From Chaenocephalus aceratus (lineage: Eukaryota; Chordata; Actinopteri; Perciformes; Channichthyidae), in NCBI GenBank assembly GCA_023974075.1, contig CM043800.1, positions 37,973,877-38,037,876 on the forward strand: a stretch of 64,000 bases of DNA. Direction: 5' to 3'. This document shows positions 1 to 37,253 of the stretch, piece after piece (position 1 is the first letter of the stretch; the number at the start of each line of letters is the position of its first letter). Under the pieces are notes generated by a model that was not told the DNA's origin, did not search any database, and saw only the letters and a program-made list of their open reading frames with translations. The position numbers were made by a program, and so were the translations under genes.

Positions 1-1098
1 AACCCCCAGTGTTTCTGATTGTGGTGTTGAAACAGGTGTAATTCAACCTCGGAACTTTTGCAAAGAATAAGGGCTTTTTTTAACTCCGCGTTGGCTAAAG
101 GGAAGTAAACGTCGTATTTAGAGCAATTGTGTCGAGGGTTGTCTGTCCCCATTATTTCAGTGGCACACATTGGTTCTACCGGGGCAGGAATTATGTGGAG
201 CAGGGGTCTGGCTCCCATACAAACGAGGCAGTCATCGCCTGTGTCTAGCGCAGCTTGTTGTGCCATCAGTAACCAGTTGTTGCTGTTTGCTGAGCGTCCC
301 GAGATTCCAGTTGCTACTTGGAACTCTTGATCAGTTGTCCACTCCTTAGTGGAGTGGATCACCACCCCCTTTTGGATGGATACTATGTCAGATTGTGGTC
401 TTTTAATGCGACCGGACCTGCATACGTATATAGAGAATTGGGGGCTTGGCGATGTCTTGGGCCATAGATAAAAGGATGCGCAAGGGGGTTCATCTTTCTT
501 GGGTGGGGGTACCCCCGTTAAGTCTAACTGTACTATGAGGCCAGATGAGGATTTTGCTAGATGTACTCTTTGCCTTACTTTTTTCGCTGTTCCTGTTGAC
601 GATGAACTCCAATCCGCCCCTGTCTCTCCCACCAAGTCGGTCCACGCTCGACCATAGCTATATCTTTCATTGGGATCGCCTTTTCCGAACCAAAGTCTAG
701 CGTCATGTACCATTGGTATTTGTTTCCCCACGACCCTCCTTTTGGTTGCGTTCATTTGACAAACTGGTGTACGGGATGAGGGTAGTGGTGCTTGAGTCCG
801 AGGGTAGGCAAAGTGTCAGCGAGATGTGTCTTAATGCATCTTCTGGTTACATTGGGTGAAATTTGCCGTATCTACTGTGCCGGCCACATTGCGGACGTGT
901 CTAGTTAGGCTGTTTTTTGGAGGAGAAAAGGTATCTTGTGTAGTTTCATTTTGTGGGGAATTTGGATTATTACTTTGGTCAATGATTTGCCCTCCCCCTT
1001 TCACCCACTATGATAATGATTATTCCAACAATGATGAAAAAACAAAGTGTTAAGGTCAAGCAATAGAGGTGTTGGTTAGGTCCTGAGTTCTTCTTCAT
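1..1098 (-). pseudogene. env: ERV envelope (surface part), partial, runs off left edge
   Basis: Read on the minus strand, a short frame begins with ATG at 1098 and encodes a leader with a strongly hydrophobic stretch (motif FFIIVGIIIIIVG); it stops at 979. A second frame is open from 815 to the left edge, with its first ATG at 755. That frame encodes a soluble, cysteine-containing product with the motif CLVCMGARPLL, which I associate with surface domains of fish ERV envelopes. It lies directly 3' of integrase, as env should. The leader and body are in different frames, so the copy is broken or carries an indel. The transmembrane subunit and LTR would lie left of the window. Seen: frames, hydrophobic leader, position. 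Inferred: Env identity. Confidence 0.6.
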
Positions 1099-1233
1099 CT
1101 TCGTTTTTCTTTGTAAAAGTTCTTTGGTGTATCAGTGTAGGTGAGTGTCTCTTGTGTGGTGTGTGTATGTGATGCGTGTGGTGTACCGCCTACTTTGGGG
1201 GAGCGGTCCCTTGTTGTGCCTCCTCGCCGGCTG

Positions 1234-2834
1234 TTATCTCCTGGGCTGTCGTTGGTTCTCCTGTTGTCTCCTCCTCCTCGGAAGTTGAGCGATCTGTCCA
1301 CACTTGGGGGTTGGGGGGGCTTCGGTTGTTTGCCTGATGTTCAGTTGGCCTAGGTCCTGGATGGTGTCAGCGAGGTTCCCTGGTAGGTGCTGGTGCTTCC
1401 ACACACCTGCTCCAGTGGTACCACGTGTCTCTTTTCCGTCTACTCTGACTGCATGATCTGTTCGCTGGGTTACCTTGAGTGGTTCAGAGAACCTTGGAGC
1501 ACACCACTTGGGTTTGATCGTCTTCAGGCGGACGTCTTCAGGGCGGACGTATTCAGCGTCCCTGCTGCCCTCAGCTTCCTCTGTGTGTCCTTTGGCTCTG
1601 GCTGCTGTGGATTCGTCTGCGAACTCTGCAACGAGCATTTTAGTTGTTTATAGTAGGCCTGGTGCCCCACTTGTCATACAGTTCCTTTGAAACCGTGGCT
1701 CCCGCCCCTGGGCCTGGGAACTGGTGCCCATGAGTCATCTCATATGGAGTGAACCCAGTGGTCCTGCAAATGGAACTCCTGATAGCCAATAGGGCGAGAG
1801 GTAGTGCCTCCAACATGTCATTCCTGTTTCTTCCATCGCCTTTGCTAGTTTCTGTTTTAGATTTAAGTTCATTCTCTCAACCTTTCCCTGTGATTGTGGA
1901 TGATACACTGCTCCAAATCTGTGGGTTAGCCCAAGAGAGGCTTCCACCACCGCTAAATCGTGATTTTTGAAGTGGCTGCCATTGTCACTGCGAATCTTTT
2001 TGGGGAACCCGTGTTCTTGGAATGTAGGTTTGTACCAGGAAGTTGATTACAGACTGGCTGTCTTCTTTTGCACAGGGGATGGCTTCTGGCCACCCTGTGT
2101 AGGCATCCACAACCATGAGTATGTACCTCTTTCCCCTATGTCTGTCTATCATGTCTGTATAGTCTATGACTATCTCCTCCCCTGCCATTGTTATTGTTAC
2201 TGCAGGAAACTTTCCCTCATGTGGTTTGATGGTTGCCCTCACATTGTAGCGTCCACAAATACTGCATTCTTCAAGATGATTGGCTATTAAATCTGGTAGG
2301 TAAGGGTGCCACCAATGGGTCAGGGCCCTAACCATTTGGTTCTTTCCTACGTGTGCCATTGAGTGTGCTTCCTTCATCATAGCTCTTACCCACCCTGGTG
2401 GGATCACTGGCCTCCCGTCTGGGGAGTACCAAATGTCATTTGCTCCCTTTCTTGCCCCTTTGTTTCTCCAGGCCGTTAGTTCTTGCGGGGAAGCTTTAGA
2501 TTGTTCTTTAGCCAACGCCTCATCTGTTCTGGCTTCTAGTATTCCTTCTTGGGGAGCCCGTACAACCATTTGTGAGAATGTGGCTTCGTATCCGGCTGCC
2601 TGCTTGGCGGCCAGATCGGCGGCATTGTTTCCATCGGTTAGGTACCCTGTGGTTTTGGAGTGTCCTTTGCATTTGATTACAGCTACTCTGTTGGCTTTCA
2701 TGATAGCCTCCTCTAACGCCTTGATTTCGTGATAGTGTTTCACTGGTGTTCCTGTACTAGTTACGAATCCTGCCCTGAGCCATCTTTTTAGGTCGTGGTG
2801 CACTACCCCGTGTACGTATGCTGAGTCTGTGTAC
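1234..2834 (-). pseudogene. pol: ERV pol fragment: RNase H C-terminal part plus integrase
   Basis: The minus strand starts abruptly at 2834 inside RNase H (YTDSAY, then the KCKGHS region). It continues in one frame to 1985 through the H2C2 zinc-binding part (H..H, CSIC) and the first catalytic Asp (VIDYTD). One base shift later come SDNGSHF (second Asp) and QGKVERMN (catalytic Glu, about 1850-1960). After another shift, 1638-1234 carries the integrase C-terminal domain (KPKW..PRF, then RTDHAVRV). All three DDE residues are present, but the reading frame is split at least three ways. The arrangement is gamma/epsilon-retrovirus-like. Reverse transcriptase, protease and gag are absent because a different LTR element begins at 2835. 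Confidence 0.8.
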
Positions 2835-3373
2835 TGTTAGGAGATTTGGGTGGTAACTAGGCCGCATTTCCAAATCTCCCCGCGTCCCTAAAACAAGCTG
2901 TTATCTTACATGAAGGAAATCCAGAGCATACACTTAACCGTTAAACAATAATCCACTTTAATGGCAATATACAATGCAATACAATCAAATACATTACCAT
3001 ACACAACCATATCGTATCATATGTAATGTCAGGAGTTTGGCCTACTCCTGGCTCCTGCCCACAGGCCGCCACGACCTCCCAGTCCCAGCGGCGCGAGGAG
3101 AGAGAGGCAGAACACAGCGGGGTTCCTGTCTATATACCTCGCTGACCCAAGGAGGAGTTATCTGCGCCTCCCTTCCAGACCAGTGATTGGCTGCCCAAAT
3201 TATCATCAACACCCCACATCAGGGATGACTGTATGTTAACTCCTGACCTTCCCCCTCTTCCTTTGTCCTCAAAAAACCACATGTTAGCAGGCCCAAAACC
3301 AGCCCAGTTTTCTACACAAATCATTTCAAGCTTCTTCACAGTTTGCATGAATACATACAAATATTTCCTTACA
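2835..3373 (-). repeat. 3' LTR of the LIM-carrying element
   Basis: This is a 539-bp repeat of 9431-9969. On the minus strand it begins TGTAAGGAAATA and ends ATCTCCTAACA. A TATATA box (3131-3136) followed about 170 bp later by an ATTAAA poly(A) signal (2957-2962, minus sense) gives a plausible U3-R-U5 layout. It abuts the broken RNase H of the neighbouring ERV at 2834. Near its U5 end (2846-2853) it differs from the other LTR in a tight cluster. Confidence 0.85.
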
Positions 3374-3385
3374 ATTCCCTCTTTT
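3374..3385 (-). other. polypurine tract
   Basis: The minus-strand sequence AAAAGAGGGAAT directly precedes the TGTAAGG start of the 3' LTR. This is the expected plus-strand primer position, and it fixes the element orientation as minus. Confidence 0.75.
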
Positions 3386-3457
3386 GCACTCTTAAACAAG
3401 AGTGCAACTTACACAAGGCACTTGCAAAAAAACTGCATCCTTGTCTGCTGAGTCTCC

Positions 3458-3792
3458 ATACTTTTTATTCTCAGTGTCCACAGTGAAGGGCACTCCGTCC
3501 AGGCTCTCGTTGCAGATGACGCAGCGGAAGCAACCGGGGCGGTAAGACTTCCCCAGGGCCTGCCGGCCTGCATGTCCATGATTAGATGTCCACCTGCGTT
3601 GCACTTGTCTGCAGACTGCTGGAACCCAGAGTACAGAAAGTCCTCTTCACAGAAAACCCTTCCTGCGTCATAGTAGAACGCCTTCCCTCTCAGCCTTCGA
3701 CTACAGGTGCTGCAACTGTCATGGTAGAGGCTGCCCATAGCTTGGCAGGCCTGGCTGGCTCCATACACCGTCTTGTTGCACTTAACACACAC
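3458..3792 (-). pseudogene. captured LIM-domain segment (Ajuba/LIMD1/WTIP type) inside the LTR element
   Basis: The minus frame from 3792 encodes a LIM zinc finger ([49 protein letters not shown]). It is followed, after a frameshift near 3590, by the start of the second LIM domain ([32 protein letters not shown]). The spacing and wording are those of the C-terminal LIM domains of the Ajuba family (AJUBA, LIMD1, WTIP), which are cytoplasmic and junctional adaptors that scaffold signalling and P-body proteins. LIM1 runs straight into LIM2 without an intron, so the source was processed RNA. A few residues between the zinc ligands of LIM1 are missing, and the similarity stops after TENK, about 70 bp before the polypurine tract. 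In place it occupies the env or accessory position. It is probably not functional as it stands. Confidence 0.85.
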
Positions 3793-4103
3793 ACTCCTGT
3801 TTCAGCGGAGAGTGGAGTCCCCTGTGCCATCCTGGCTTGCCGTGTCTTTGTCCCCTCTGATCCGCTGACGGCGGCTTCTGGGCTGCCTGCTAGAGAGATG
3901 TCTTCCTTCTCCTCCGGCTTGCTGATGGCGGCTTCCGAGTCGCTGCTGAATAGATGTCCTCCCGATCTTCCTTCTCCGGTCCGATGATGATGCCTCCTGG
4001 GACGACTGCTGGATGGATGTCCTCGAGGTCCTTCTCCTCCAGTCCGCTGATGACAGCATCCGAGTCGACCTCCATGATGAGAGCCGATCCGTCCTGATGT
4101 CGT

Positions 4104-4364
4104 CTAGGGTCCTCGCAGTGTTTTCCCCGCCGCACACTGGCTCCAGTGTACCAGTTGTCCCCCTTTCCTTGTAGGCGGACGGCACGGGATGTCCTCTGGG
4201 TCACTCGGTCGGGGCCGGAGAGCCTGGGGTTGACAGTCAGCCTCCTGCGTCTCGGGTCCCCCTTTTGGCATCACAACCTGTGTGGAGAAATCTGATACAA
4301 ATCCCTCAAGCCTACGCTCCGGGCTCTGGGGCCCTCGGCTGTTTGACCCACCAGTGCGTGGCAA
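4104..4364 (-). pseudogene. pol: integrase C-terminal remnant of the LIM-carrying element
   Basis: The minus strand encodes VTQRTSRAVRLQGKGDNWY (4204 leftward) and, in the next frame, LVHWSQCAAGKTL. Together these match the C-terminal tail of gamma-like fish retroviral integrases, split by one frameshift. No catalytic core was found upstream. The frame continues leftward to 3890 as an acidic stretch with an imperfect internal repeat (SGLEEKDLEDIHPA and GPEKEDREDIYSA), then stops before the LIM segment. Confidence 0.65.
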
Positions 4365-4369
4365 CTTGG

Positions 4370-7300
4370 AGCCTGTTGGTGGGGTGTCTTAAAACACAGA
4401 CGTCTGTGCACAGGTTTTCTAAATTAATTGTGCAGCTTCAGAATCTTAATACTTGGACTGTGCCCACTAAATAAGAACCCCAACATCTTTAGGTAAACTA
4501 AATAACATATTTCAATAGCTCTGAATTTCTGACAAGCATCTGTATTTATTTTTAAATGAAATCCCTGAGATCCCATTAAAAATCTAAAAATATGATTTGA
4601 ACTGTTAATGTTTCTGGTAAAGAAACACACTAATCTTATGGATTCAAAAACAACCAAAATCACAATACTAACAAAGTGAATGGCTTCCTGGTGATACTGC
4701 TTTACCCGTCAGTGCTTAGATATTATCCCACTAAAAAATGAATACAGAATTCCCACAAACTGTCATCAAATGTCTTTCTATTACAAATGTAGATGAAATG
4801 TATATCCCCATAATGACCTAAACAATAAAGTCTATGGCTTTTACTTCTTTACCAGGCTAGTTACATGATGTTGTCTGTTGAAACATTACTCACAGGTCAG
4901 CTCCCAGCATTCCATTCTGGACTTACATCTCTCCCAGCAGCCCCTTGGCCACTGATTCTCTATCTGTGTTACCTGCTATAACTCAATCAATATTAGAGAC
5001 ATGTCAACATTCATCAAACAGTGTGTTATCCCCAGATATGGAGCAGGTCAATTCTAAAACTGTCAATCAATGGTCAGATTGAACAATGGAGTTGGGCCAG
5101 CCGGTTCCTTTCAGTCCCTAAATGAAAAATGTACATTGTAAAGTTTACACTCCCCCTTTTTTACACATTTTCTCATGTGTAAACAAAAACCTGTATGGGA
5201 AGAAAACCTTCAGGTCATAATGGATTATAAGACAATACCAAACATTTTTCCCAGTAAACACTTGAGAGTGTTTCTCTCCATCATTCAGTCCTAAAAGAAA
5301 CAGAATTCCAAATGTCATAGTTTGAGTTTCACATTCTGCAAACGGCCACCTCCTGTGGGAGTGAAACATCATGAAGCAGATTAGATACGGTTTCCCCTTT
5401 TGTGCAATGTTAGGAAACCTCTCATTTCACACATTATTATCACACAAAAATAATGTGTTAGTCCAAAACATGCTTGATTAGTCATCGTTTTAAATCATGC
5501 AGTTGCACTGATCAGGTGCAGACATACACACACTCACACTCACACTGTCAGGTTGTAAAGTCAGGTTTGGTCAGGTTCACCGCAGAGTCAGTCATTGACA
5601 GTGCCTTCCCAAGTTACCCTGTCGGTCAGTTGGTCTCAGTCTTTTTGGCCATGTGTCGTGCTCTGCAGAGACTTTGATGTTCCAGCACAGGCCAGCATCC
5701 TCCGTCTATACAAATCTGTATATATGGAGCGCCATCATTTATTAATTCACAATTACAACTATAATGTTCAAGATATCTCCAACCCCTCCTTGCCGTTTCC
5801 CACATTCCCTGAAAAGTGTCTAGCCAAAAAAATGTCACTTCCTTATTGTACTATTACTATTACTGCAATTCATTTACACCTAATTAGTATCAAAATGACT
5901 AATAGATCTATTTCAGAAACATGTGTACATCACTATTATCTTGTGTCAAAACATTACTAGGATCTGTAAAGATCTGCTATGTATTCCATAACTCATTCTA
6001 TCAATTTATCTTCAATTCTGGTGCACTTAAAGAACAATGTTACCCTCTTTAACAGTGCGTGGAACTCTGGGTGTCTGAACATGAAACCAGTACCTCAAAT
6101 TGAAATACTATATTTTGTTTAGAACCAGCTTTCCCTTCAACATGACCTATATAAATAAATATTTATCTGATCTCATAGAGCTGTTACTAAAACTCTCCCT
6201 TTGAACTGATCAATACTGTAACAAATTAAAACACTACCAAATTCACACACGAATAAAAAGTCCAGTGCATACTTCCTTCATGCCCCCCCCTTTTTTTTAT
6301 CAGTGTGTATTAGACTGATTTTCCACTTCCCTTTAATAGTTCCCCTCTTTTCCGCTATTTTTATTTACCACTTGACTAATTTATGGTCCATACATCTTCT
6401 TATCTTCACTTATTTATCAAGTCAATTCAAGTTCTTTACAATACATTAGTAGATACCTTGTGGAGTCTTCACAATAACTAATCCCCTCTAGGATATGAAA
6501 TCCATTCATCTTCAAGCAGATACTATGTCCTTATTTATCTTTTGTTCATGATAACAATGGTATAACAACCACACGTCTTCAATTCTGGTCCACCTAAAAA
6601 TCAATGTTAAACTCTCAGCAGTGTGTGGAACCCTGGATGTCCGAACATGCAACCATTACTCCCTCCTTTATCAAGGATTTAAAAACAGAAGTCATTTCAT
6701 ATTTCCCATGGTAATAACTATGCTACAATGGTGAAATCAATTATTTAGATTGGAATACTATATCTGGCTTGGCACCAGCTCTCCCTTTAACATTATCCAT
6801 ACAGATAAAGATTTGTCTTATAGAGTGGTTCCTAAAACTATCCCACTACTTTATTCACACAATAAAAATGTCAAAGAATATTTTGTTAACCTGATGAAAA
6901 GATTGAAGAATATGGTTGTACTCTGAACCCTCAGTGTGTTCTCATTTTACTCTAATAGTTTACTGCTATTTTTAATTTAATAAATCTTTCTGTCTTTACG
7001 TATTTATGCTTTAAATGTGCGTTTTGTGAATAAGTGTGTTTATGTGTAAACTCACTCATTCCCGTTTCCTTTTCTCCTCCTCTGGTTTTCTCAAGCCGTG
7101 ACCCCGGCCTCCTCACTTCTAATCGACCATGCCAACTCCTCTGATTCTGTGTTCTCTTCAGTCCATCAGCTGTAACTTCATCAGCTGTAACTCTTTCAGG
7201 CAGCCATTGGCCCAGTTACATCTGCAGCTCCCATCATGCTAATGTTCCTGCACTGCTTTGCATTTCATCTTCCTTTACAGTCTCCCTGCTGTTTTTATGG

Positions 7301-9410
7301 AGGGGGATTCTGCTCTCATGTCCCACACTTTGCTCTTGTGCTCAGCTTGGAACTTCATGGTCCCGTCTGAGGGACTGATGAGCGTAGATCTCTGCCTGTC
7401 AGCATGCTGTTTGGTTCTGGATGCCACAGGTGGAGATAGTTCTGGCTGCAGTCTTGTTGTTGTTGTTTCAGCTCTGGTTCTCTGTCTGTTCGATGGAGAA
7501 GGAGGAGTCTCCCGTTGGGTTAGGTCTTTTGTCTGCTTGGAGGGTCGGGATCGTAGCCTTTTCTAACTCAGAGGGGGAGTCCAGGTCTCGGGACGCATTA
7601 CCTATAGGAAGTCTAGCACACTGAGGTTAAATAAATCCAACCCTTTCCACTCTGACTCTTTGTAATCATACTATCTGTCTTAATTGTTAAATGCCATCTA
7701 AACAACCTAATTGATGTCTACAAATGATATTACAAAAACTCACTCTAAAAATTGTTTCATCCATTGCTACATATTTACCCAACATAACTCTTTCAGGAAA
7801 CCATTTTCTCCTATACATTGAAAAACGTACATGTTTCCAGCATCACATATTCCACACACTACGAAAGAACATCTACATATTTTCTCCAATATTTTAAGCT
7901 AGTTTCTATAACAAGATTATCATGTGTGACATAATAATCAGATGTCTTGTTTGCTAACCAAAATATTAAACTTTAAAATCTCTTTTGACCAGTTGAAGTC
8001 CTGCTTACTTCATCTTTAAACTCTTCTTTAATTTGAAACCAAAAAAGGTCTTCCTTCTCCACCATGATCCTATCTCTATATCAAAGTCCAGACAAACTGA
8101 TGATTTATCTCTATAAACCATGAGGAATGAAAACACTATTCTCCCTTACTTCAGTTCTAAATCAAATGAGCCAGACAGGAAACCCCCTTTAACCACTTGC
8201 TTATCCTATTATTTTGATCAAAGTTGTGTTACAAGCAGGTTAGATCTGTAATGAATTAAAATCAATATTTAAAGACGCAATATAAGTTAAATATATTGTT
8301 AAGCTAATTACTGTTTTATTGTGAAGGCCTCTCTGGCGAACAGCGGCCTTTGGTTTTATTTTGAAAGGCCGTTCCGGAACAGCGACAATCGTTCTAATGC
8401 ATTAACTATAGTCGTGAAAGAGACAAGGAGGGGGAAGGCGTGTGGAAGCAAGCAATGAACTGAAAATGCCACCAATCCTGTTTTAACGTGATGGCGCACA
8501 TTGAAAACCGAAGCGCCCTGTCATAACTGACAAGCGTTCAAAAACCTTTCTGCTTATCTCTTAGGCCACTACTTTTTGTTTTATTCATAACCTAAAAATA
8601 CAATTGTGATGAATAGCTTGCTTTTGTACCATTACATTTACCAACATAAAACAAGGTCTGTACTAATCAACAATGACAACCTACAGACAGCTCATTTATT
8701 TAAATATACGCACTATATTGACTTCGTTTTTTTTTTATCTGACTTCTTCACTCTTCTGAGTGCTTTGGTCACAGAAGTATTTCAGGTAAAAATCACACAG
8801 ATTTATTCCCCGTACAGTTTGTCCGGCTTGATAACGTGCTACATATGTCGTCACGCAGGACTCTCTGCCTACCTTGCGATCAACGTTATGTTTACGTCAG
8901 CCTTTCAAATAATTTTTACAGACAAGGGAAACGGGAGCCGGTCTCGTCACAATGTAGGTGACGTTAGCGCTCTCTCCCAAGGATTTAACAGATAAAAGTC
9001 CGCTGACACTTTCGCTTATTTGGTCTTGGACTCTTATTTACCCCCAGTTATAAACGGCGGATCGATCTGAAATATCGATCATCCAGGTTCCGTCGTGTAA
9101 GACTCACACCTACATCCCACGAACTGCACCGCTCCTACGCCACTTCAGGACTAAAATACCTGAGATCCACGCAAACTGCTTTTATTTCTTGTTACGCAGG
9201 ACTCTCTATACCTGGCGATCAACGTTCACGTGTTATATATAACTTTCCTAACATGGTAAAAAATATGCATTGTATACTCCATTCAAACTTCAAAAACACT
9301 CTGAAACGCCTACAGACAATCCTACAGGGCCCTGCTATTGTCCGAGGCGTCTAAAAGTGCTTGTTCCCGACCCAGTGTGGTCCTCTGAATCCTTCCACAG
9401 CTCATGTTTA
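4370..9410 (-). other. interior of the LTR element without recognisable genes
   Basis: About 5 kb, AT-rich in its central part, with only short shadow frames on either strand. I found no reverse transcriptase, protease, nucleocapsid knuckle or Env signature. It contains an imperfect tandem duplication (6003-7000). It also contains a proline/serine/glutamine-rich minus-strand stretch (about 7300-7610) that could be gag debris. Near the 5' LTR there is a short motif (ACGCAGGACTCTCT ... GCGATCAACGTT) present twice, near 8855 and 9194. Confidence 0.5.
6003..7000. repeat. imperfect tandem duplication, period about 570 bp
   Basis: The block starting ATCTTCAATTCTGGTGCACTTAAAG at about 6009 recurs near 6576 with many substitutions and a roughly 100-bp insertion. 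Matching segments include GTGTCTGAACATG/GTGTCCGAACATG, the ACCAGCT..CCCTT..ACAT region and ATAGTTTACTGCTATTTTT. The copies are clearly older than the LTR pair, so this duplication predates the last mobilisation. Confidence 0.6.
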
Positions 9411-9428
9411 TTCAGCGTCGAGTCACCA
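9411..9428 (-). other. primer-binding-site-like sequence
   Basis: The minus strand reads TGGTGACTCGACGCTGAA two bases after the 5' LTR. TGG is the expected start of a retroviral primer-binding site, complementary to a tRNA CCA end. It partly resembles a tRNA-Trp complement but does not match perfectly, so the primer tRNA is not assigned. Confidence 0.5.
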
Positions 9429-9430
9429 TT

Positions 9431-9969
9431 TGTTAGGAGATATAAATGATAACTAGGCCGCATTTCCAAATCTCCCCGCGTCCCTAAAACAAGCTGTTAT
9501 CTTACATGAAGGAAATCCAGAGCATACACTTAACCGTTAAACAATAATCCACTTTAATGGTAATATACAATGCAATACAATCAAATACATTACCATACAC
9601 AACCATATCGTATCATATGTGTAATGTCAGGAGTTTGGCCTACTCCTGGCTCCTGCCCACAGGCCGCCACGACCTCCCAGTCCCAGCGGCGCGAGGAGAG
9701 AGAGGCAGAACACAGCGGGGTTCCTGTCTATATACCTCGCTGACCCAAGGAGGAGTTATCTGCGCCTCCCTTCCAGACCAGTGATTGGCTGCCCAAATTA
9801 TCATCACACCCCACATCAGGGATGACTGATGTTAACTCCTGACCTTCCCCCTCTTCCTTTGTCCTCAAAAAACCACATGTTAGCAGGCCCAAAACCAGCC
9901 CAGTTTTCTACACAAATCATTTTCAAGCTTCTTCACAGTTTGCATGAATACATACAATATTTCCTTACA
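9431..9969 (-). repeat. 5' LTR of the LIM-carrying element
   Basis: Same 539-bp length as 2835-3373 and the same TG...CA ends. A TATATA box lies at 9729-9734 and an ATTAAA signal at 9553-9558 (minus sense). Single-base differences from the 3' LTR are scattered, apart from the cluster near 9442-9449. Confidence 0.85.
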
Positions 9970-10043
9970 CTTCCTACACACATCGTAACATTTCTAAGGT
10001 TTATTGACATATCATATACGCAAACGGTGTAGTTATGCAATGA

Positions 10044-10285
10044 ATGAAAAACGTGGGTCGCAGGTTCCTCAACAGTGCATTACAAGACATCTATCAATAT
10101 TAGTATCAAATACTATGTTGAAGCACTTATTTGAACTGTATTATACATATGTATTATACTCTTATAAGTTGTATGTAGTATAATAAATGTGCACATACGA
10201 TAGTTTAATGGTGGAGGTATACACACATATTAATAGATGTCTTGTAATGCACTGTTGATGAACCTGCAACCCAAGTTTTTCATCT
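10044..10285. repeat. foldback (MITE-like) element
   Basis: Arms of about 53 bp (10044-10096 and 10233-10285) are inverted copies of each other with a few mismatches. They share AACAGTGCATTACAAGACAT. The 135-bp spacer is AT-rich. No target duplication was recognised. Confidence 0.75.
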
Positions 10286-10850
10286 CCGACCTTGTCAGGT
10301 ATTGAACATTCAATAAATAAAGAACACAGAATTATTAAATATAAAACACATAATTTGTGTGATTATACTAAATGATTTACAAATAAACACCACTGCATAT
10401 TTACAACTGTTACACATGCTGATGTAACGCAAATGTTTCCAACTTAGGATCAATAAAGTATATCTTATCTTAAGATGATCAATGGCTACTGCCATATTTG
10501 CAAAATGTGCCTCTGAACCTTGACAAGTGCATGTTTCAGGCTCATCAATTAACAACAGGAGGGGTCACAGACATAAGACCAGCAGTTAAATAAAGCTCTT
10601 CTGACCTTAGCTGTCATGTGGGTATATTAATGCTGCCCATTATGGGCACAAGCAATTTTCACCCATGTATTAATTATATGTTTTAAATGTGAGTGTTCCT
10701 ATCCCCTAAACCTCCAGGGATGTGCACAGTTTAAGACTGGCAACTTCTTATTATGGGAAATACGAAAACGTCTTTTAAAGCCACAACTCCCAGTAGAGAC
10801 GTGCCATAGATAACATGTTGCGAAACACAATAGCCAGCATGTGTAGTTCT

Positions 10851-10880
10851 GGGGACGGGGTGGGGGAGGTGGGGATGGGG
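10851..10880 (+). other. G-quadruplex-capable tract
   Basis: Five runs of four or more G separated by short loops within 30 bases (starts GGGGACGGGGTGGGGG). It meets the usual G3+N1-7 rule. Function unknown. Confidence 0.6.
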
Positions 10881-11814
10881 TGGACCCATTCAAATCCAGT
10901 TTTGGACAGTCTGCCGTGGTTCCATCCCATTTCAAGTGCTGTTCGACGCTCGGCGTAACCCTCAGAGCACACTCAAACATCCAATCACAGAGTTTGGGTT
11001 TGTCAAGCGGAGAGAATACTTACTTCCGGGTGTAAAATTCTCTAAAGCAAATGAGTTGCTCGGAACCACGGTCCTGACAGACTCCAATTTGTGTTTATTG
11101 ATCAAACAAATAAATAAACACAAGGATAATTATGTGTTATTGTTGAGTAAATGGAGAATTGCACAGGGGAAAATAACGTATCAATGCCACAATTTTAGAT
11201 GCGGATTTTGTTAAACTAATACGTTTGCGCTGTGGACCAACACTATACATTGACGGGGAAGGGGGTAGCAATAAAGATAATACCATTAAACAGTTACACA
11301 ACATAACAGAAATAATATCGAAAATAGGCATTTATACCGAGAATAAAACGAAGTTCAGCCATGTTTTTTTTTTCTGCAGGGAGAAATGTGAAGATCACGT
11401 GACATAGACGCCAACCATTGGAATGAATGGTGAAAACAACATAGGGATCTTACAATTTCAGAGGCGTTTTTGTAGAAATACTACGTCCCAAGTTGTGGAT
11501 GTAGTTATTACATGTTTTTTTGTGAGACTGGGTTGAATGATCACCAATACAAATGGTTCACGAAATATGACTACTACTCTTACTGTTTAACATTTTTGGT
11601 TACTTAATGTTACTTCATATTAAGGCTAATACAAATTACAAGGCTGTAATGCTAAACTAACGTGCTAGCTACTAGCTAGGTAGCTAACTTGATCCAGCCA
11701 CTCCTGGTCCTTTCATCAGACGGGAAGCGAAAAAACGAGCAAGACACATTGCTGGTATGATAACAACCTGGTACTAAGCACACAGGCATCTTGTTAAAGT
11801 TATCTTATCTTAGC

Positions 11815-11851
11815 CAGCGCCATATAGCTAGATTATATCTATATGGCGCTG
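11815..11851. repeat. short inverted repeat
   Basis: CAGCGCCATATA and TATATGGCGCTG form a perfect 12-bp stem around a 13-nt loop. Confidence 0.6.
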
Positions 11852-11949
11852 ATCTTAGCTATCTCTTAGTGGAGGAAAACAATTTTGACATCACTTACGC
11901 GACTCTGGGATTTGTAGTCTTTCTAGTTGCATATTTTTCATAATCTTAT

Positions 11950-12125
11950 ATTTCAACAGTTTTACGACAAACTGTGACTTTTTTGACATGGAAATAATTT
12001 TTTTAAGATTGACAAACATCATATGTGTAATTCATGGCACAATTCAAACGGGATCGACAGATACGTTTTCTCTCTCCATTGACTTCAATACATTATTTTT
12101 CCGAAATAAGGTCCCATGGACCGGA
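11950..12125 (+). repeat. dispersed repeat, copy 1 (inverse copy at 53322-53490)
   Basis: The segment with TTTGACATGGAAATAA, ACAAACATCATATGTGT, AATTCAAACGGGATCGA and CCATTGACTTCAAT is matched in reverse complement at 53322-53490. Interspersed repeat of unassigned family. Confidence 0.7.
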
Positions 12126-12555
12126 AGTAGATGGGCGTGACTTCCCCACTCTATATATAAATGGACGTAGTGTCCGTGACGTCACCCATAGGATTCTGCA
12201 GAGTTGCTGAGAAGCCCTTAGTAGGCGGAGTCGGCCACGTCTCGACAGGGACATCAGAAGGCTTGTTTGAGACACATTGCGGCTCGCCTCGAAAGTAGAC
12301 GAGAGTAGCCGATCGCAGCCGGGGGAGGTGTCAAAATGCTCGTCTTAAGTCGGACAGCTCGGACTCAGAGTCGGCTTGACTGGCTGGGTTTGCAATGGCG
12401 GAAATTGCGTTGGCGTTTTTCGTTGCAGATGAAGTGGATGCAATAGAAATCCCACATGTATTGTATGGAGAATGACATGATCTAAAGGGACTGTGATTGA
12501 GAGAAAATTAAATATTTATACATAGTGATGTCACATTGTTCAGATGTAAAAAATG

Positions 12556-12596
12556 AGTCCAACTGAGGGAGGCCCCCCCCCTCCCTCAGTTGGACT
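12556..12596. repeat. perfect 17-bp stem hairpin with C7 loop
   Basis: AGTCCAACTGAGGGAGG is followed by seven C and its exact reverse complement. A DNA transposon end or foldback remnant is possible. Confidence 0.7.
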
Positions 12597-12652
12597 TGGA
12601 GGGGGAACATCCTTCTGGAGTGAACTTTGGGATTTAAGCCTTTTTAGACCAT

Positions 12653-12659
12653 GCACACA

Positions 12660-12723
<64 letters not shown>

Positions 12724-12749
12724 CACACCACACACACACACACACACAC
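12653..12749. repeat. (CA)n microsatellite
   Basis: About 97 bp of CA repeat with a few CACCACA and CTCAC interruptions. A second, shorter CA tract lies at 12961-12987. Confidence 0.95.
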
Positions 12750-13023
12750 CTGTCTGAGAGGGATGGAACACAACAGAATGATTTTATAATGTTAAGATAA
12801 GATGGACCTTATAGCGGCAACAGAAACCCAGAGCACTAGCCAAAATAAGCGTGAGTGTTATAAATATAAACCCAGAAGAAAGTAACACAAGTAGTTCACA
12901 TAAGAATATACACAGGGATATTAAGCATAAATAAAAGAATAAACATGTATTAACGGTATGAACAACACACACACACACACACACACTCTTGTTTATAGTG
13001 TAATCTTTTCTTGTGTTAACTAG

Positions 13024-16000
13024 ATCAACAACGCCGGCTGTATGGTGAACCAGAGAGAGTTGACTGAGGAGGGTTTGGAGAAGAGCTTTGCCACAAATAC
13101 ACTGGGTAAATAAAGTGTGTTTAAAACCTCCGTATGAAGCTTATTGGAGTCGTCCCTTTCCTGTCGTGTTATACAGGTTTGTGTGCATGTAAATGGTCTG
13201 CAGAGGCTAAAATCCCTAAGTTTCTCTCGCCCCCTGGAATCATTAACTCTACCGAATATAAAAGAATATTCCTACGAAAAGCTTTCCGATAACACTTTTG
13301 TTAAGACACCAGTTAATGAATACCTGTTGTCTGGGAGATTTGCTAAAATGTCTTCTGTGTTTATTTTATTTTTCAGGTACGTACATCCTCACCACGGCGC
13401 TGATACCTGCACTCAAGAAGGTGGAAGATCCGAGAGTGGTGGGTTGAATTTAAACTTTAAAACCCTCGTGCCAGATAAGATAATGACATGCAAATAATGT
13501 TTTACTATCAGAACAGAACAAGAAAGTACACTGATAATCAAATGTGTGCAGTTTATCAGAATGCACTAATTGTTATGCTTCTGCTTCTTCGAAGGTCACG
13601 GTGTCGTCGGGCGGGATGCTCACACAGAAGCTGAACGTGGACGACCTGCAGTTTGAGAAGGGGACGTTTGACGGCACCATGGTCTACGCCCAGAACAAGG
13701 TACAGGAGATGGAGTTAGAACACGAGATGACTGCGGCGTGCGCGTTGTGTCTGCTGAAGTGTTTTTGTGTTGACGCTCTGACAGAGACAGCAGGTGATCC
13801 TGACGGACAGGTGGGCGTCTCAGCACAAAGAGATCCACTTCTCCTGCATGCACCCCGGCTGGGCCGACACTCCAGGTAGGGACAGGACATTAGATTAACA
13901 TGTTGAGAAACAAATGGCAGCTGTACCTTCTTTGAGACATGGACATAAAATAAATCCCTGCTAGCATTATAGCATAGTATTTGTGTTCAACATGTAAGAA
14001 GTAGAAAGTATAGGTATTTGTGTTCAACATGTAAGAAGTAGAAAGTACAGGTATTTGTGTTCAACATGTAAGAAGTAGAAAGTACAGGTATTTGAGTTCA
14101 ACATGTAAGAAGTAGAAAGTACAGGTATTTGTGTTCAACATGTAAGAAGTAGAAAGTACAGGTATTTGGTTCAACATGTAAGAAGTAGAAAGTACAGGTA
14201 TTTGAGTTCAACATGTGAGAAGTAGAAAGTACAGGTATTTGAGTTCAACATGTGAGAAGTAGAAAGTACAGGTATTTGAGTTCAACATGTAAGAAGTAGA
14301 AAGTACAGGTATTTGTGTTCAACATGTAAGAAAGTAGAAAGTACAGGTATTTGAGTTCAACATGGAAGAAGTAGAAAGTATAGGTATTTGAGTTCAACAT
14401 GTAAGAAGTAGAAAGTACAGGTATTTGAGTTCAACATGTGAGAAGTAAGTGAAAGTACAGGTATTTGTGTTCAACATGAGAAGTAGAAAGTACAGGTATT
14501 TGGGTTCAACATGTAAGAAGTAGAAAGTACAGGTATTTGTGTTCAACATGTAAGAAGTAGAAAGTACAGGTATTTGGTTCAACATGTAAGAAGTAGAAAG
14601 TACAGGTATTTGTGTTCAACATGTGAGAAGTAGAAAGTACAGGTATTTGGATTCAACATGTAAGAAGTAGAAAGTACAGGTATTTGGTTCAACATGTAAG
14701 AAGTAGAAAGTACAGGTATTTGATTCAACATGTAAGAAGTAGAAAGTACAGGTATTTGGTTCAACATGTAAGAAGTAGAAAGTCAGGTATTTGGTTCAAT
14801 ATGTAAGAAGTAGAAAGTACAGGTATTTGAGTTCAACATGTGAGAAGTAGAAAGTACAGGTATTTGTGTTCAACATGTAGAAGTAGAAAGTACAGGTATT
14901 TGTGTTCAACATGTAAGAAGTAGAAAGTACAGGTATTTGTGTTCAATATGTGAGAAGTAGAAAGTAAGGTATTTGTGTTCAACATGTAAGAAGTAGAAAG
15001 TACAGGTATTTGAGTTCAACATGTAAGAAGTAGAAAGTACAGGTATTTGGTTCAACATGTAAGAAGTAGAAAGTACAGGTATTTGTGTTCAACATGTAAG
15101 AAGTAGAAAGTACAGGTATTTGTGTTCAACATGTAAGAAGTAGAAAGTAGGTATTTGTGTTCAACATGTAAGAAGTAGAAAGTACAGGTATTTGTGTTCA
15201 CTGTAAGAAGTAGAAAGTACAGGTATTTGTGTTCAACATGTAAGAAGTAGAAAGTACAGGTATTTGTGTTCAATATGTAAGAAGTAGAAAGTACAGGTAT
15301 TGTGTTCAATGTGAGAAGTAGAAAGTACAGGTATTTGTGTTCAACATGTAAGAAGTAGAAAGTACAGGTATTTGAGTTCAACATGTAAGAAGTAGAAAGT
15401 ACAGGTATTTGGTTCAACATGTAAGAAGTAGAAAGTACAGGTATTTGTGTTCAACATGTAAGAAGTAGAAAGTACAGGTATTTGGTTCAACATGTAAGAA
15501 GTAGAAAGTACAGGTATTTGAGTTCAACATGTAAGAAAGTAGAAAGTACAGGTATTTGTGTTCAACATGTAAGAAGTAGAAAGTACAGGTATTTGGTTCA
15601 ACATGTAAGAAGTAGAAAGTACAGGTATTTGTTCAACATGTGAGAAGTAGAAAGTACAGGTATTTGAGTTCAACATGTAAGAAGTAGAAAGTACAGGTAT
15701 TTGGTTCAACATGTAGAAGTAGAAAGTACAGGTATTTGTGTTCAACATGAGAAGTAGAAAGTACAGGTATTTGATTCAACATGTAAGAAGTAGAAAGTAC
15801 AGTATTTGTGTTCAACATGTGAGAAGTAGAAAGTACAGGTATTTGTGTTCAACATGTAAGAAGTAGAAAGTACAGGTATTTGGGTTCAACATGTAAGAAG
15901 TAGAAAGTACAGGTATTTGTGTTCAACATGTAAGAAGTAGAAAGTACAGGTATTTGGTTCAACATGTAAGAAGTAGAAAGTACAGGTATTTGTGTTCAAC

Positions 16001-19000
16001 ATGTGAGAAGTAGAAAGTACAGGTATTTGAGTTCAACATGTAAGAAGTAGAAAGTACAGGTATTTGGGTTCAACATGTAAGAAGTAGAAAGTACAGGTAT
16101 TTGTGTTCAACATGTAAGAAGTAGAAAGTTCAGGTATTTGTGTTCAACATGTAAGAGTAGAAAGTACAGGTATTTGTGTTCAAATGTAGAAGTAGAAAGT
16201 ACAGGTATTTGTGTTCAATATGTGAGAAGTAGAAAGTACAGGTATTTGTGTTCAACATGTAAGAAGTAGAAAGTACAGGTATTTGAGTTCAACATGTAAG
16301 AAGTAGAAAGTACAGGTATTTGGGTTCAACATGTAAGAAGTAGAAAGTACAGGTATTTGTGTTCAACATGTAGTAGAAGTAGAAAGTACAGGTATTTGAG
16401 TTCAACATGTAAGAAGTAGAAAGTACAGGTATTTGAGTTCAACATGTAAGAAGTAGAAAGTACAGGTATTTGTGTTCAACATGTAAGAAGTAGAAGTACA
16501 GGTATTTGGTTCAAACATGTAAGAAGTAGAAAGTACAGGTATTTGTGTTCAACATGTGAGAAGTAGAAAGTACAGGTATTTGGGTTCAACATGTAAGAAG
16601 TAGAAAGTACAGGTATTTGTGTTCAACATGTAAGAAGTAGAAAGTACAGGTATTTGTGTTCAACATGTAAGAAGTAGAAAGTACAGGTATTTGGTTCAAC
16701 ATGTAAGAAGTAGAAAGTACAGGTATTTGTGTTCAACATGTAAGAGAGAAAGTCAGGTATTTGGTTCACATGTAAGAAGTAGAAAGTACAGGTATTTGAG
16801 TTCAACATGTGAGAAGTAGAAAGTACAGGTATTTGTGTTCAACATGTAAGAAGTAGAAAGTATAGGTATTTGTGTTCAACATGTAAGAAGTAGAAAGTAC
16901 AGGTATTTGTGTTCAACATGTAAGAAGTAGAAAGTACAGGTATTTGTGTTCACATGTGAGAAGTAGAAAGTACAGGTATTTGTGTTCAACATGTAAGAAG
17001 TAGAAAGTACAGGTATTTGAGTTCAACATGTAAGAAGTAGAAAGTACAGGTATTTGGTTCAACATGTAAGAAGTAGAAAGTACAGGTATTTGAGTTCAAC
17101 ATGTAAGAAGTAGAAAGTACAGGTATTTGAGTTCAACATGTAAGAAGTAGAAAGTACAGGTATTTGTGTTCAACATGTGAGAAGTAGAAAGTACAGGTAT
17201 TTGTGTTCAACATGTAAGAAGTAGAAAGTACAGGTATTTGTGTTCAACATGTAAGAAGTAGAAAGTCAGGTATTTGTGTTCAACATGTAAGAAGTAGAAA
17301 GTACAGGTATTTGGGTTCAACATGTAAGAAGTAGAAAGTACAGGTATTTGAGTTCAACATGTGAGAGTAGAAAGTACAGGTATTTGAGTTCAACATGTAA
17401 GAAGTAGAAAGTACAGGTATTTGTGTTCAACATGTAAGAAGTAGAAAGTACAGGTATTTGAGTTCAACATGAAGAAGTAGAAATACAGGTATTTGAGTTC
17501 AACATGTGAGAAGTAGAAGTACAGGTATTTGAGTTCAACATGTGAGAAGTAGAAAGTACAGGTATTTGTGTTCAACATGTGAGAAGTAGAAAGTACAGGT
17601 ATTTGGTTCAACATGTAAGAAGTAGAAGTACAGGTATTTGTGTTCAACATGTAAGAAGTAGAAAGTACAGGTATTTGATTCAACATGTAAGAAGTAGAAA
17701 GTACAGGTATTTGTGTTCAACATGTAGAAGTAGAAAGTACAGGTAGAATTGAGAGAAAGTATATTTGAGTTCAACATGTAAGAAGTAGAAAGTACAGGTA
17801 TTTGGGTTCAACATGTAAGAAGTAGAAAGTACAGGTATTGTGTTCAACATGTAAGAAGTAGAAAGTTCAGGTATTTGAGTTCAACATGTGAGAAGTAGAA
17901 AGTACAGGTATTTGTGTTCAACATGTGAGAAGTAGAAAGTACAGGTATTTGTGTTCAACATGTAAGAAGTAGAAAGTACAGGTATTTGTTCAATATTGGA
18001 GAAGTAGAAAGTACAGGTATTTGTGTTCAACATGTAGAAGTAGAAAGTACAGGTATTTGAGTTCAACATGTAAGAAGTAGAAAGTACAGGTATTTGGTTC
18101 AACATGTAAGAAGTAGAAAGTACAGGTATTTGTGTTCAACATGTAAGAAGTAGAAAGTACAGGTATTTGAGTTCAACATGTAAGAAGTAGAAAGTACAGG
18201 TATTTGAGTTCAACATGTAAGAAGTAGAAAGTACGGTATTTGTGTTCAACATGTAAGAAGTAGAAAGTACAGGTATTTGGGTTCAACATGTAAGAAGTAG
18301 AAGTACAGGTATTTGAGTTCAACATGTGAGAAGTAGAAAGTACAGGTATTTGAGTTCAACATGTAAGAAGTAGAAAGTACAGGTATTTGGTTCAACATGT
18401 AAGAAGTAGAAAGTACAGGTATTTGTGTTCAACATGTAAGAAGTAGAAAGTCAGGTATTTGGTTCAACATGTAAGAAGTAGAAAGTACAGGTATTTGAGT
18501 TCAACATGTGAGAAGTAGAAAGTACAGGTATTTGTGTTCAACATGTAAGAAGTAGAAAGTACAGGTATTTGTGTTCAACATGTAAGAAGTAGAAAGTACA
18601 GGTTTTGTGTTCAATGTGAAAGTAGAAAGTACAGTTTTGTGTTCAACATGTAAGAAGTAGAAAGTACAGGTATTTGAGTTCAACATGTAAGAAGTAGAAA
18701 GTACAGGTATTTGGGTTCACATGTAAGAAGTAGAAAGTACAGGTATTTGTGTTCAACATGTAAGAAGTAGAAAGTACAGGTATTTGAGTTCAACATGTAA
18801 GAAGTAGAAAGTACAGGTATTTGGTTCAACATGTAAGAAGTAGAAAGTACAGGTATTTGTGTTCAACATGTAAGGTAGAAAGTACAGGTATTTGGGTTCA
18901 ACATGTAAGAAGTAGAAAGTACAGGTATTGGGTGTTCAACATGTAAGAAGTAGAAAGTACCGGTATTTGAGTTCAACATGTGAGAAGTAGAAAGTACAGG

Positions 19001-22000
19001 TATTTGAGTTCAACATGTAAGAAGTAGAAGTACAGGTATTTGTGTTCAACATGTAAGAGTAGAAAGTACAGGTATTTGAGTTCAACATGGAGAAGTAGAA
19101 ATACAGGTATTGAGTTCAACATGTAAGAAGTAGAAAGTACAGGTATTTGAGTTCAACATGTGGAAAGTAAGTACAGGTATTTGTGTTCAACATGTGAGAA
19201 GTAGAAAGTACAGGTATTTGGGTTCAACATGTAAGAAGTAGAAAGTACAGGTATTTTGTTTCAACATGTAAGAAGTAGAAAGTACAGGTATTTGGATTCA
19301 ACATGTAAGAAGTGAGAAATACAGGTATTTGTGTTCAACATGTGATAAGTAGAAAGTACAGGTTTTGAGTTCAACATGTAAGAGTAGAAGTACAGGTATT
19401 TGGGTGTCAACATGTAAGAAGTAGAAAGTACAGGTATTTGTGTTCAACATGTAAGAAGTAGAAAGTTCAGGTATTTGTGTTCACATGTAAGAAGTAGAAA
19501 TTACAGGTATTGTGTTCAACATGTGAGAAGTAGAAAGTACAGGTATTGGTGTTCAATATGTGAAGAAGTAGAAAGTACAGGTATTTGTGTTCAACATGTA
19601 AGAAGTAGAAAGTACAGGTATTTGAGTCAACATGTAAGAAGTAGAAAGTACAGGTATTTGGGTTCAACATGTAAGAAGTAGAAAGTACAGGTATTTGTGT
19701 TTTCAACATGTAAGAAGTAGAAAGTACAGGTATTTGAGTTCAACATGTAAGAAGTAGAAAGTACAGGTATTGAGTTCAACATGTAAGAAGTAGAAAGTAC
19801 AGGTATTGTGTTCAACATGTGAGAAGTAGAAAGTACAGGTATTGAGTTCAACATGTAAGAAGTAGAAAGTACAGGTATTTGTGTTCAACATGTAAGAAGT
19901 AGAAAGTTCAGGTATTTGTGTTCACATGTAAGAAGTAGAAAGTACAGGTATTTGGGTTCAACATGTAAGAAGTAGAAAGTACAGGTATTTGAGTTCAACA
20001 TGTGAGAAGTAGAAAGTACAGGTATTTGCGTTCAACAGTAAGAAGTAGAAAGTACAGGATTTGTGTTCAACATGTAAGAAGTAGAAAAGTAAGGTATTTG
20101 AGTTTCAACATGGAAGAAGTAGAAAATATAGGTATTTGAGTTCAACATGTAAGAAGTAGAAAGTACAGGTATTTGAGTTCAACATGGAAGTAGAAAGTAC
20201 AGGTATTTGTTCAACATGTGAGAAGTAAAATACAGGTATTGGGTTCAACATGTAGAAGTAGAAAGTACAGGTATTTGTGTTCAACATGTAAGAAGTAGAA
20301 AGTACAGGTATTTGGATTCAACATGTAAAGAATAGAAAGTACAGGTTTGTGTTCAACCTGTGAGAAGTAGAAAGTACAGGTATTTGAGTTCAACATGTAA
20401 GAAGTAGAAAGTACAGTATTTGGGTTCACATGTAAGAAGTAGAAGACAGGTATTTGTGTTCAACATGTAAGAAGTAGAAAGTTCAGGTATTTGGGTTCAA
20501 TATGTAAGAAGTAGAAATTACAGGTATTTGAGTTCAACATGTGAGAAGTAGAAAGTACAGGTATTTGTGTTCAACATGTAAGAAGTAGAAAGTACAGGTA
20601 TTTGTGTTCAACATGTAAGAAGTAGAAGTACAGGTATTTTGTGTTCACTATGTGAGAAGTAGAAAGTACAGGTTTTTGTGTTCAACATGAAGAAGTAGAA
20701 GTACAGGTATTTGAGTTCAACATGTAAGAAGTAGAAGTACAGGTATTGTGTTCAACATGTAAGAAGTAAGAATACAGGTATTTGTGTTCATATGTAAGAA
20801 GTAGGAAAGTACAGGTATTTGTGTTCATATGTGAGAAGTAGAAAGTACAGGTATTTGTGTTCAACATGTAAGAAGTAGAAGTACAGGTATTGAGTTCAAC
20901 ATGTAAGAAGTAGAAAGTACAGGTATGGGTTCAACATGTAAGAAGTAGAAGTACAGGTATTTGTGTTCAACAGTAAGAAGTAGAAAGTACAGGTATTTGA
21001 GTTCAACATGTAAGAAGTAGAAAGTACAGGTATTGAGTTCAACATGTAGAAGTAGAAGTACAGTATTTGAGTTCAACATGGAAGAAGTGAAAATATAGGT
21101 ATTGAGTTCAACATGTAAGAAGTAGAAAGTACAGGTATTTGAGTTCAACATGTGAGAAGTAGAAAGTACAGGTTTGTGTTCAACATGTGAGAAGTAGAAG
21201 TACAGGTATTTGGGTTCAACATGTAAGAAGTAGAAAGTACAGGTATTTGGATTCAACATGTAAGAAGTAGAAAGTACAGGTATTTGTTTCAACATGTGAG
21301 AAGTAGAAAGTACAGGTATTTGAGGTTCAACATGTAAGAAGTAGAAAGTACAGGTATTTGGGTTCAACATGTAAGAATAGAAAGTACAGGTATTTGTGTT
21401 CAACATGTAAGAGTAGAAAGTTCAGGTATTTTGTTCAACATGTAAGAAGTAGAAAGTACAGGTATTTGTGTTCAACATGTGAGAAGTAGAAAGTACAGGT
21501 ATGGTGTTCAATATGTGAGAAGTAGAAAGTACAGGTATTTGTGTTCAACATGTAAGAAGTAGAAAAGTACATGTATTTGAGTTCACATGTAAGAAGTAGA
21601 AAGTACAGGTATTTGGGTTAACATGTAAGAAGTAGAAAGTACAGGTATTTGTGTTCAACATGTAAGAAGTAGAAAGTACAGGTATTTGAGTCAACATGTA
21701 AGACGTAGAAAGTACAGGTATTTGAGTTCAACATGTAAGAAGTAGAAAGTACAGGTATGTGTTCAACATGTGAGAAGTAGAAAGTACAGGTATTTGAGTT
21801 CAACATGTAAGAAGTAGAAAGTACAGGTATTGTGTTCAACATGTAAGAAGTAGAAAGTACAGGTATTTGTGTTCAACATGTAAGAAGTAAAAGTACAGGT
21901 ATTTGTGTTCAATATGTGAGAAGTAGAAATACGGTATTGTGTTTCAACATGTAAGAAGTAGAAAGTACAGGTATTTGAGTTCAACATGTAAGAAGTAGAA

Positions 22001-28052: not shown

Positions 28053-28277
28053 ATGATATCCTTCAGAGGAGACATATCCTTCAGAGGAGACATATCCTTC
28101 AGAGGAGACATATCCTTCACAGGAGACATATCCTTCACAGGAGACATATCCTTCACAGGAGACATATCCTTCAGAGGAGAAATATCTTTCACAGGAGACA
28201 TATCCTTCAGAGGAGACATCCTTCACAGGAGACATATCCTTCAGAGGAGACATATCCTTCACAGGAGACATATCCTT
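28053..28277. repeat. 18-bp minisatellite
   Basis: About 12 copies of an 18-bp unit (CTTCAGAGGAGACATATC and its CTTCACAGG variant). Because 18 is a multiple of three, both strands encode hexapeptide repeats (SFRGDI/SFTGDI on plus), but there is no sign that it is coding. It flows directly into the 10-bp array at TTCACTGTGTGTCAC. Confidence 0.95.
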
Positions 28278-37200: not shown

Positions 37201-37253
37201 CTGTGTCTCACTGTGTGTCACTGTGTCTCACTGTGTGTCACTGTCTCACTGTG
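28276..37253. repeat. 9-kb array of a 10-bp unit in the wdfy2 last intron
   Basis: Some 900 units of CTCACTGTGT with 10-bp GTCACTGTGT and 8-bp CTCACTGT variants, plus rarer GTTACTGTGT, CTCAATGTGT and CTCATTGTGT. The unit contains no plus-strand stop in any phase, so all three plus frames stay open for up to 3,077 codons. These are artefacts of composition, not genes. Larger blocks are duplicated: about 29091-29570 recurs 1,260-1,270 bp downstream, and 31920-32230 recurs 890 bp downstream. Confidence 0.97.

Follow-up and report, generated by a model that had tools for sequence, protein, structure and literature searches.

A probable capture of a host limd1a LIM fragment by a retrovirus-like LTR element in icefishes

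An LTR-bounded element in the genome of the icefish Chaenocephalus aceratus carries, on its own sense strand between the LTRs, a coding segment derived from a host gene, the LIM region of limd1a (3792-3458, minus strand). We consider it very probable that this is a retrovirus-like LTR element, non-autonomous, into which part of host limd1a was transduced. The element lies in the window, by which we mean the whole stretch of 64,000 nucleotides that was analysed and to which all positions refer. A transducing LTR element with a captured LIM gene had been proposed in an earlier note on this DNA, and the proposal is supported by the paired LTRs, by an integrase remnant, by a LIM block in sense orientation and by the same joins in predicted proteins of two further icefishes, P0001 and P0003.

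The element and its surroundings

Two direct repeats of 539 bases each, at 2835-3373 and 9431-9969, have TG..CA ends (TGTTAGG..CCTTACA) and are about 98% identical (534 of 547 alignment columns). The earlier note was right that the element is bounded by LTRs; the span it gave, 2835-4364, covers the 3' part only, the second LTR being the repeat at 9431-9969. Because TGGTGACTCGACGCTGAA stands beside the 9431 end of one repeat and AAAAGAGGGAAT directly upstream of the other, the element is read on the minus strand, in the following order.

9431-9969, minus strand: 5' LTR with TG..CA ends; minus-strand TATATA (9729) and ATTAAA-type signal (9553), both of putative role
9411-9428, minus strand: putative primer-binding site TGGTGACTCGACGCTGAA, a TGG... 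stretch separated from the 5' LTR by two bases
4381-9410, minus strand: internal stretch, GC 0.38, with no gag or pol recognised by Pfam scan and tblastn
4100-4316, minus strand: frameshifted remnant of the integrase C-terminal domain, from tblastn with the integrase end of an older ERV and with P0122
3811-4080, minus strand: acidic repeat block of four units 57-63 bases apart, from direct repeats and alignments
3571-3792, minus strand: LIM1 and the beginning of LIM2, both of limd1a, from identity to P0002 and Pfam LIM
3458-3562, minus strand: further LIM2 part of limd1a, in a different frame; P0002 agrees at 33 of 35 residues
3386-3457, minus strand: element tail after the LIM block, common to P0001 and in part to P0003
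3374-3385, minus strand: polypurine tract AAAAGAGGGAAT, abutting the 3' LTR
2835-3373, minus strand: 3' LTR; minus-strand TATATA (3131) and ATTAAA-type signal (2957), both of putative role

The putative primer-binding site is, we presume, similar to a tRNA-Trp site. Divergence between the LTRs is about 1% (K2P 0.011): 2835-3372 and 9431-9969 differ by six substitutions at 535 sites and by seven gap columns, one of which is the base left out, and five of the six substitutions fall within the first 19 alignment columns. On assumed rates, the LTRs would be about 1 to 3 million years old. An 82% direct repeat (6009-6093 and 6576-6659) lies within the non-coding part of the element.

What coding capacity of its own does the element retain? 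Gag, pol and env frames of an autonomous retrovirus were not recognised beyond the integrase end. A Pfam scan of 4365-9430 covered both strands and all 32 stop-to-stop frames with a length of 50 codons or more; no frame scored above a curated cut-off for any family, and the lowest E-values, 0.006 and 0.013, belong to unrelated families. Pieces of the older ERV, which occupies the left flank, matched the element interior at the integrase end only, together with one 16-residue match at chance level (E 0.11). Since no gag or pol is recognised, we infer that the enzymes of a relative were used.

The integrase remnant, at about 4316-4100, was detected by tblastn both with the integrase end of the older ERV (35% over 74 aa, E 9e-7) and with P0122, a predicted protein of Gymnodraco acuticeps (E 3e-24 and 4e-12); it lies on the side of the LIM block that faces away from the polypurine tract, as had been read from the letters of the DNA. 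P0122 also matches the older ERV at 4e-17 and, weakly, the Pfam integrase C-terminal model (E 0.07). The name integrase derives from matches of the older ERV to Pfam rve (4.9e-5 and 1.4e-5) and to a zinc-binding domain (1.5e-4), none of which reaches its curated cut-off; RNase H is the sole match of that ERV above one.

The older ERV (1-2834, minus strand) comprises RNase H, an integrase core in two frames and the integrase end. Its truncation coincides exactly with the boundary of the LIM element's 3' LTR (2834/2835), and its RNase H forms the left flank. A 271-codon open frame at 3-815, which has no Pfam match, is possibly its env. To the right of 9969/9970, neither reverse transcriptase nor any other rest of this ERV was found by Pfam in seven of the 17 frames of 45 codons or more that the minus strand of 9970-12900 contains; the right-flank matches are all below the cut-off (DUF7772, 3e-4; PRA1, 0.19). 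A target-site duplication, sought as a match of 4-6 bases with end offsets of up to 3, is absent (GTGTAC on the left, CTTCCT on the right), such a duplication being the mark of an undisturbed insertion and not of the LTR retroelement family. Because there is no duplication, because the left flank is RNase H of the older ERV and because no rest of that ERV is seen on the right, the pair of LTRs may stem from separate insertions brought together by recombination or assembly.

Elsewhere in the window, tandem arrays occupy 13977-23544 (period 37, about 263 copies) and 28277-37253 (period 10, about 949 copies), and inverted repeats with 208-base arms, 96% complementary, together with related direct repeats at 38962-41473, perhaps constitute a foldback mobile element. 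The plus strand at 13024-13107 reads INNAGCMVNQRELTEEGLEKSFATNTLG and resembles an exon of a short-chain dehydrogenase, which we take to be DHRS12. Rfam gave no match in the 64-kb window.

The LIM block and the same joins in other icefishes

The LIM block runs from 3792 to 3458 on the minus strand in two frames (3792-3571 and 3562-3458) and ends just before the polypurine tract. Its position between the integrase remnant and the polypurine tract, on the strand of the element, agrees in order and strand with the earlier reading. The first piece is identical to limd1a of Pagothenia (P0002) at 70 of 77 residues, and P0002 is the best host protein (E 9.5e-37). Pfam LIM is matched above the cut-off by the first frame (E 1.2e-7), with the second frame at 2.6e-4 and 21.6 bits against a cut-off of 22.9; among 20 mononucleotide shuffles of the stretch, the highest score was 20 bits. 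A PDB search returned seven distinct LIM sequences, all distant (best E 2.5e-6). The wording ascribed to the Ajuba/LIMD1/WTIP family is therefore that of a real LIM region, given the Pfam match and shuffles of at most 20 bits, and its nearest proteins are of the LIMD1(a) type.

Only LIM1 and part of LIM2 are present in the window copy, against the three C-terminal LIM domains of LIMD1/Ajuba proteins; three LIM stretches are found in P0002, two in P0003 and one in P0001. The LIM1 of the window copy lacks three residues, with the loss of one Cys, and the first pair of LIM2, CNAC, reads CNAG. We take the Cys and CNAC positions to be ligands, following the LIM consensus.

P0001 (Pseudochaenichthys georgianus, 272 aa) and P0003 (Champsocephalus gunnari, 246 aa) are short predicted proteins of Channichthyidae among the 120 matches listed for the LIM block; both are gene models, and paired LTRs are observed for the window copy. 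P0001 starts in integrase-derived sequence and P0003 within the acidic block, without integrase-derived residues; both enter LIM1 and end in the element tail YGDSADK. The acidic/LIM and LIM/tail joins of the window thus recur in both, with a different length of LIM sequence between them. Over the integrase-derived stretch, acidic block, LIM and tail, P0001 is identical to the window at 254 of 259 residues, with seven frameshift marks; P0003 is identical at 181 of 194 over the acidic block and LIM, with two frameshift marks, and its tail also matches. Three LIM1 residues present in P0001 are missing from the window, so P0001 is not the same sequence. The joined acidic/LIM/tail structure is, as read from DNA and predicted proteins, present in at least three forms (window, P0001 and P0003). 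The earlier note had left open whether the element is a single fossil or the founder of a family; with two icefish predicted proteins spanning LIM and element-derived sequence on both sides, the family is favoured.

With the non-LIM part of P0001 as query, four of 219 candidates passed, namely P0001 itself, P0003, P0121 and P0122, and stretches related to the acidic block occur in these same four. P0121, from a metagenome contig of 1940 bases, contains the acidic block and breaks off at the final residues ahead of LIM. It may be a LIM-free relative that represents the form before capture, the alternative being that the contig ends at the junction. P0122 had been considered as a LIM-free parent and was dropped: it stops at the frame end of the integrase/acidic frame of the window and is for this reason uninformative on LIM. 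In a search for longer relatives of the integrase/acidic stretch, none of the 383 candidates gave a score. Viral contigs scanned with the LIM frame, P0122, P0121, an ERV frame and two LTR words yielded no relative, nor did prokaryote contigs scanned with P0001, and NCBIfam had no match for P0001, P0002 or P0003.

How did a LIM fragment come to lie within an LTR element? An ordinary, LINE-made processed copy of limd1a could have been inserted into the element, or overrun by it, as the earlier note had weighed. The LIM block spans about 350 bases without a visible intron (frameshift-tolerant protein alignment), as a processed copy would, and an insertion into an element could spread with that element. 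LINE-made copies keep their 3' end, and the captured part has none, since it stops inside LIM3 in P0003 and inside LIM2 here. The sense strand of 3373-4400 has no run of six or more A that could be a poly(A). Element-derived sequence also flanks LIM on both sides in P0001 and P0003. Because both gene ends are lost, poly(A) is absent and the fragment lies in sense between the pol remnant and the polypurine tract, capture of RNA during retroviral replication fits better than a LINE-made pseudogene, which we regard as very improbable.

Capture by the element would have begun either with read-through transcription from the element into limd1a or with reverse transcription that switched between element RNA and limd1a mRNA. 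LIM1 to part of LIM3 would thereby have come to lie between the pol terminus and the polypurine tract, and an intact relative would then have supplied the enzymes that carried the chimera. P0003 passes through LIM2 into LIM3 before the tail, whereas P0001 and the window go from mid-LIM2 straight to the tail, and both of these read CNAG where P0003 and limd1a have CNAC. From the longer CNAC form and the short CNAG form we infer that the longer form came first and the deleted form later; an internal deletion would have taken out the LIM2/LIM3 part in P0001 and the window copy and not in P0003.

Did the chimera move after the capture? All three LIM copies could go back to one insertion at an orthologous locus: a single capture that never moved again would appear as the same locus inherited by related icefishes. 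The 254 of 259 identical residues of P0001 and the membership of both P0001 and P0003 in Channichthyidae suit such a locus, while P0003 shows no internal deletion, and 13 of its 194 aligned residues are different. The LTRs, about 1% apart, suggest an insertion younger than the P0003 difference, a weak argument that sets protein beside DNA differences, uses assumed rates and takes LTRs perhaps of two insertions. We consider a single immobile locus possible and rather unlikely.

Could the fusion instead be a domesticated host gene, with integrase tail and LIM kept as a working gene of icefishes? P0003 and P0001 are annotated as proteins, and P0003 has two LIM matches. Set against this, frameshifts interrupt the window copy and some of its LIM residues are gone, and P0001 shares one of these losses (CNAG) and shows a single LIM stretch. 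Domestication is, in our estimation, very improbable.

The donor gene

The protein search with LIM gave 818 candidates, of which 739 passed E 0.001, and diagnostic residues were counted on the best 120 of the 739 together with P0121 and P0122. DA in place of VG and SYR in place of SYH (SYRPG) occur jointly in the window and in two of the 122 proteins compared, P0001 and P0003; three and 13 of the 122, respectively, are without the pattern. Common to all three copies, DA and SYR indicate a single capture. The T in KCNKTVYG is found in the window, P0001, P0003 and Pagothenia P0002 (three of the 122 proteins, with 11 lacking the pattern); Eleginops P0050, from another notothenioid family, has A at this donor-mark position.

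Ranked by score against the LIM of P0003, P0002 is first of 119, with a lead of one residue (137 versus 136 identical) over Centropristis, which is not a notothenioid, and an unnamed protein. From the T mark and this top rank, the donor is probably limd1a of an Antarctic notothenioid. The earlier note had proposed alignment with ajuba, limd1 and wtip exons as the way to the donor; comparison with proteins puts LIMD1(a)-type proteins nearest and P0002 best among the matches listed. The look-alike proteins carry mixed LIMD1(a) and WTIP database names, of which limd1a is our chosen name, a choice helped by what we take to be the N-terminus of LIMD1.

Place among known host-gene captures

Capture of host mRNA by retroviruses is described as relatively uncommon (PMC4299795). 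Two crocodilian ERV lineages contain host mRNA according to the passages of PMC4299795 that concern them, nectin3 in CrocERV31 and KIT-ligand in CrocERV29. Like the LIM element, they are endogenous lineages with a captured host mRNA, and for nectin3 the capture came at a cost to env (PMC4299795). Their captured frames are described as intact and as bearing signs of purifying selection, and the KIT-ligand lineage as having retained viral coding regions (PMC4299795). The LIM element, in contrast, holds a host fragment that is broken in the window copy, and of viral coding sequence the integrase remnant alone is recognised in it. The same source names two earlier cases, src of Rous sarcoma virus and the cyclin homologues of walleye epidermal hyperplasia virus. 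Both resemble the LIM element in that a host growth-control gene is found in a retrovirus, in the walleye case in fish; they are exogenous viruses with genes of their own and a kinase or cyclin cargo (PMC4299795), unlike the LIM scaffold carried here. With the KIT-ligand, nectin3, src and walleye cyclin cases before us, LTR elements that transduce host genes are a known kind.

LTR-mediated retroposition by template switching, treated as a source of gene retrocopies in a review citing Tan and coworkers (PMC5408686), similarly copies a limited part of a host mRNA into element cDNA, between the LTRs. Its products are described as gene retrocopies (PMC5408686), whereas the LIM element presents a joined fragment in more than one species. 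No report of a LIMD1 cargo, or of a notothenioid setting for such an element, was found in the titles and abstracts of the papers listed from the open-licence literature, in keeping with the earlier note, which knew of no LIM-transducing retrovirus.

Was the captured fragment ever active? The window copy is decayed and most likely does nothing as a protein today. A bolder proposal is that a retrovirus of Antarctic fishes had the LIM fragment of limd1a as functional cargo, joined to its integrase tail and interfering with LIMD1/Hippo growth control in the manner of v-src or the walleye cyclins, and that some icefishes still express an intact form resembling P0003. We think this improbable.

The cargo of the transducing element is a LIM scaffold, not a kinase, cyclin or ligand, and the junctions, a donor candidate and relatives are all available together for one capture. 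With LTRs that differ by little, a donor traced to a small radiation of fishes, forms of two lengths and a possible relative without LIM (P0121) that ends at the junction, the steps of the capture could be read directly.
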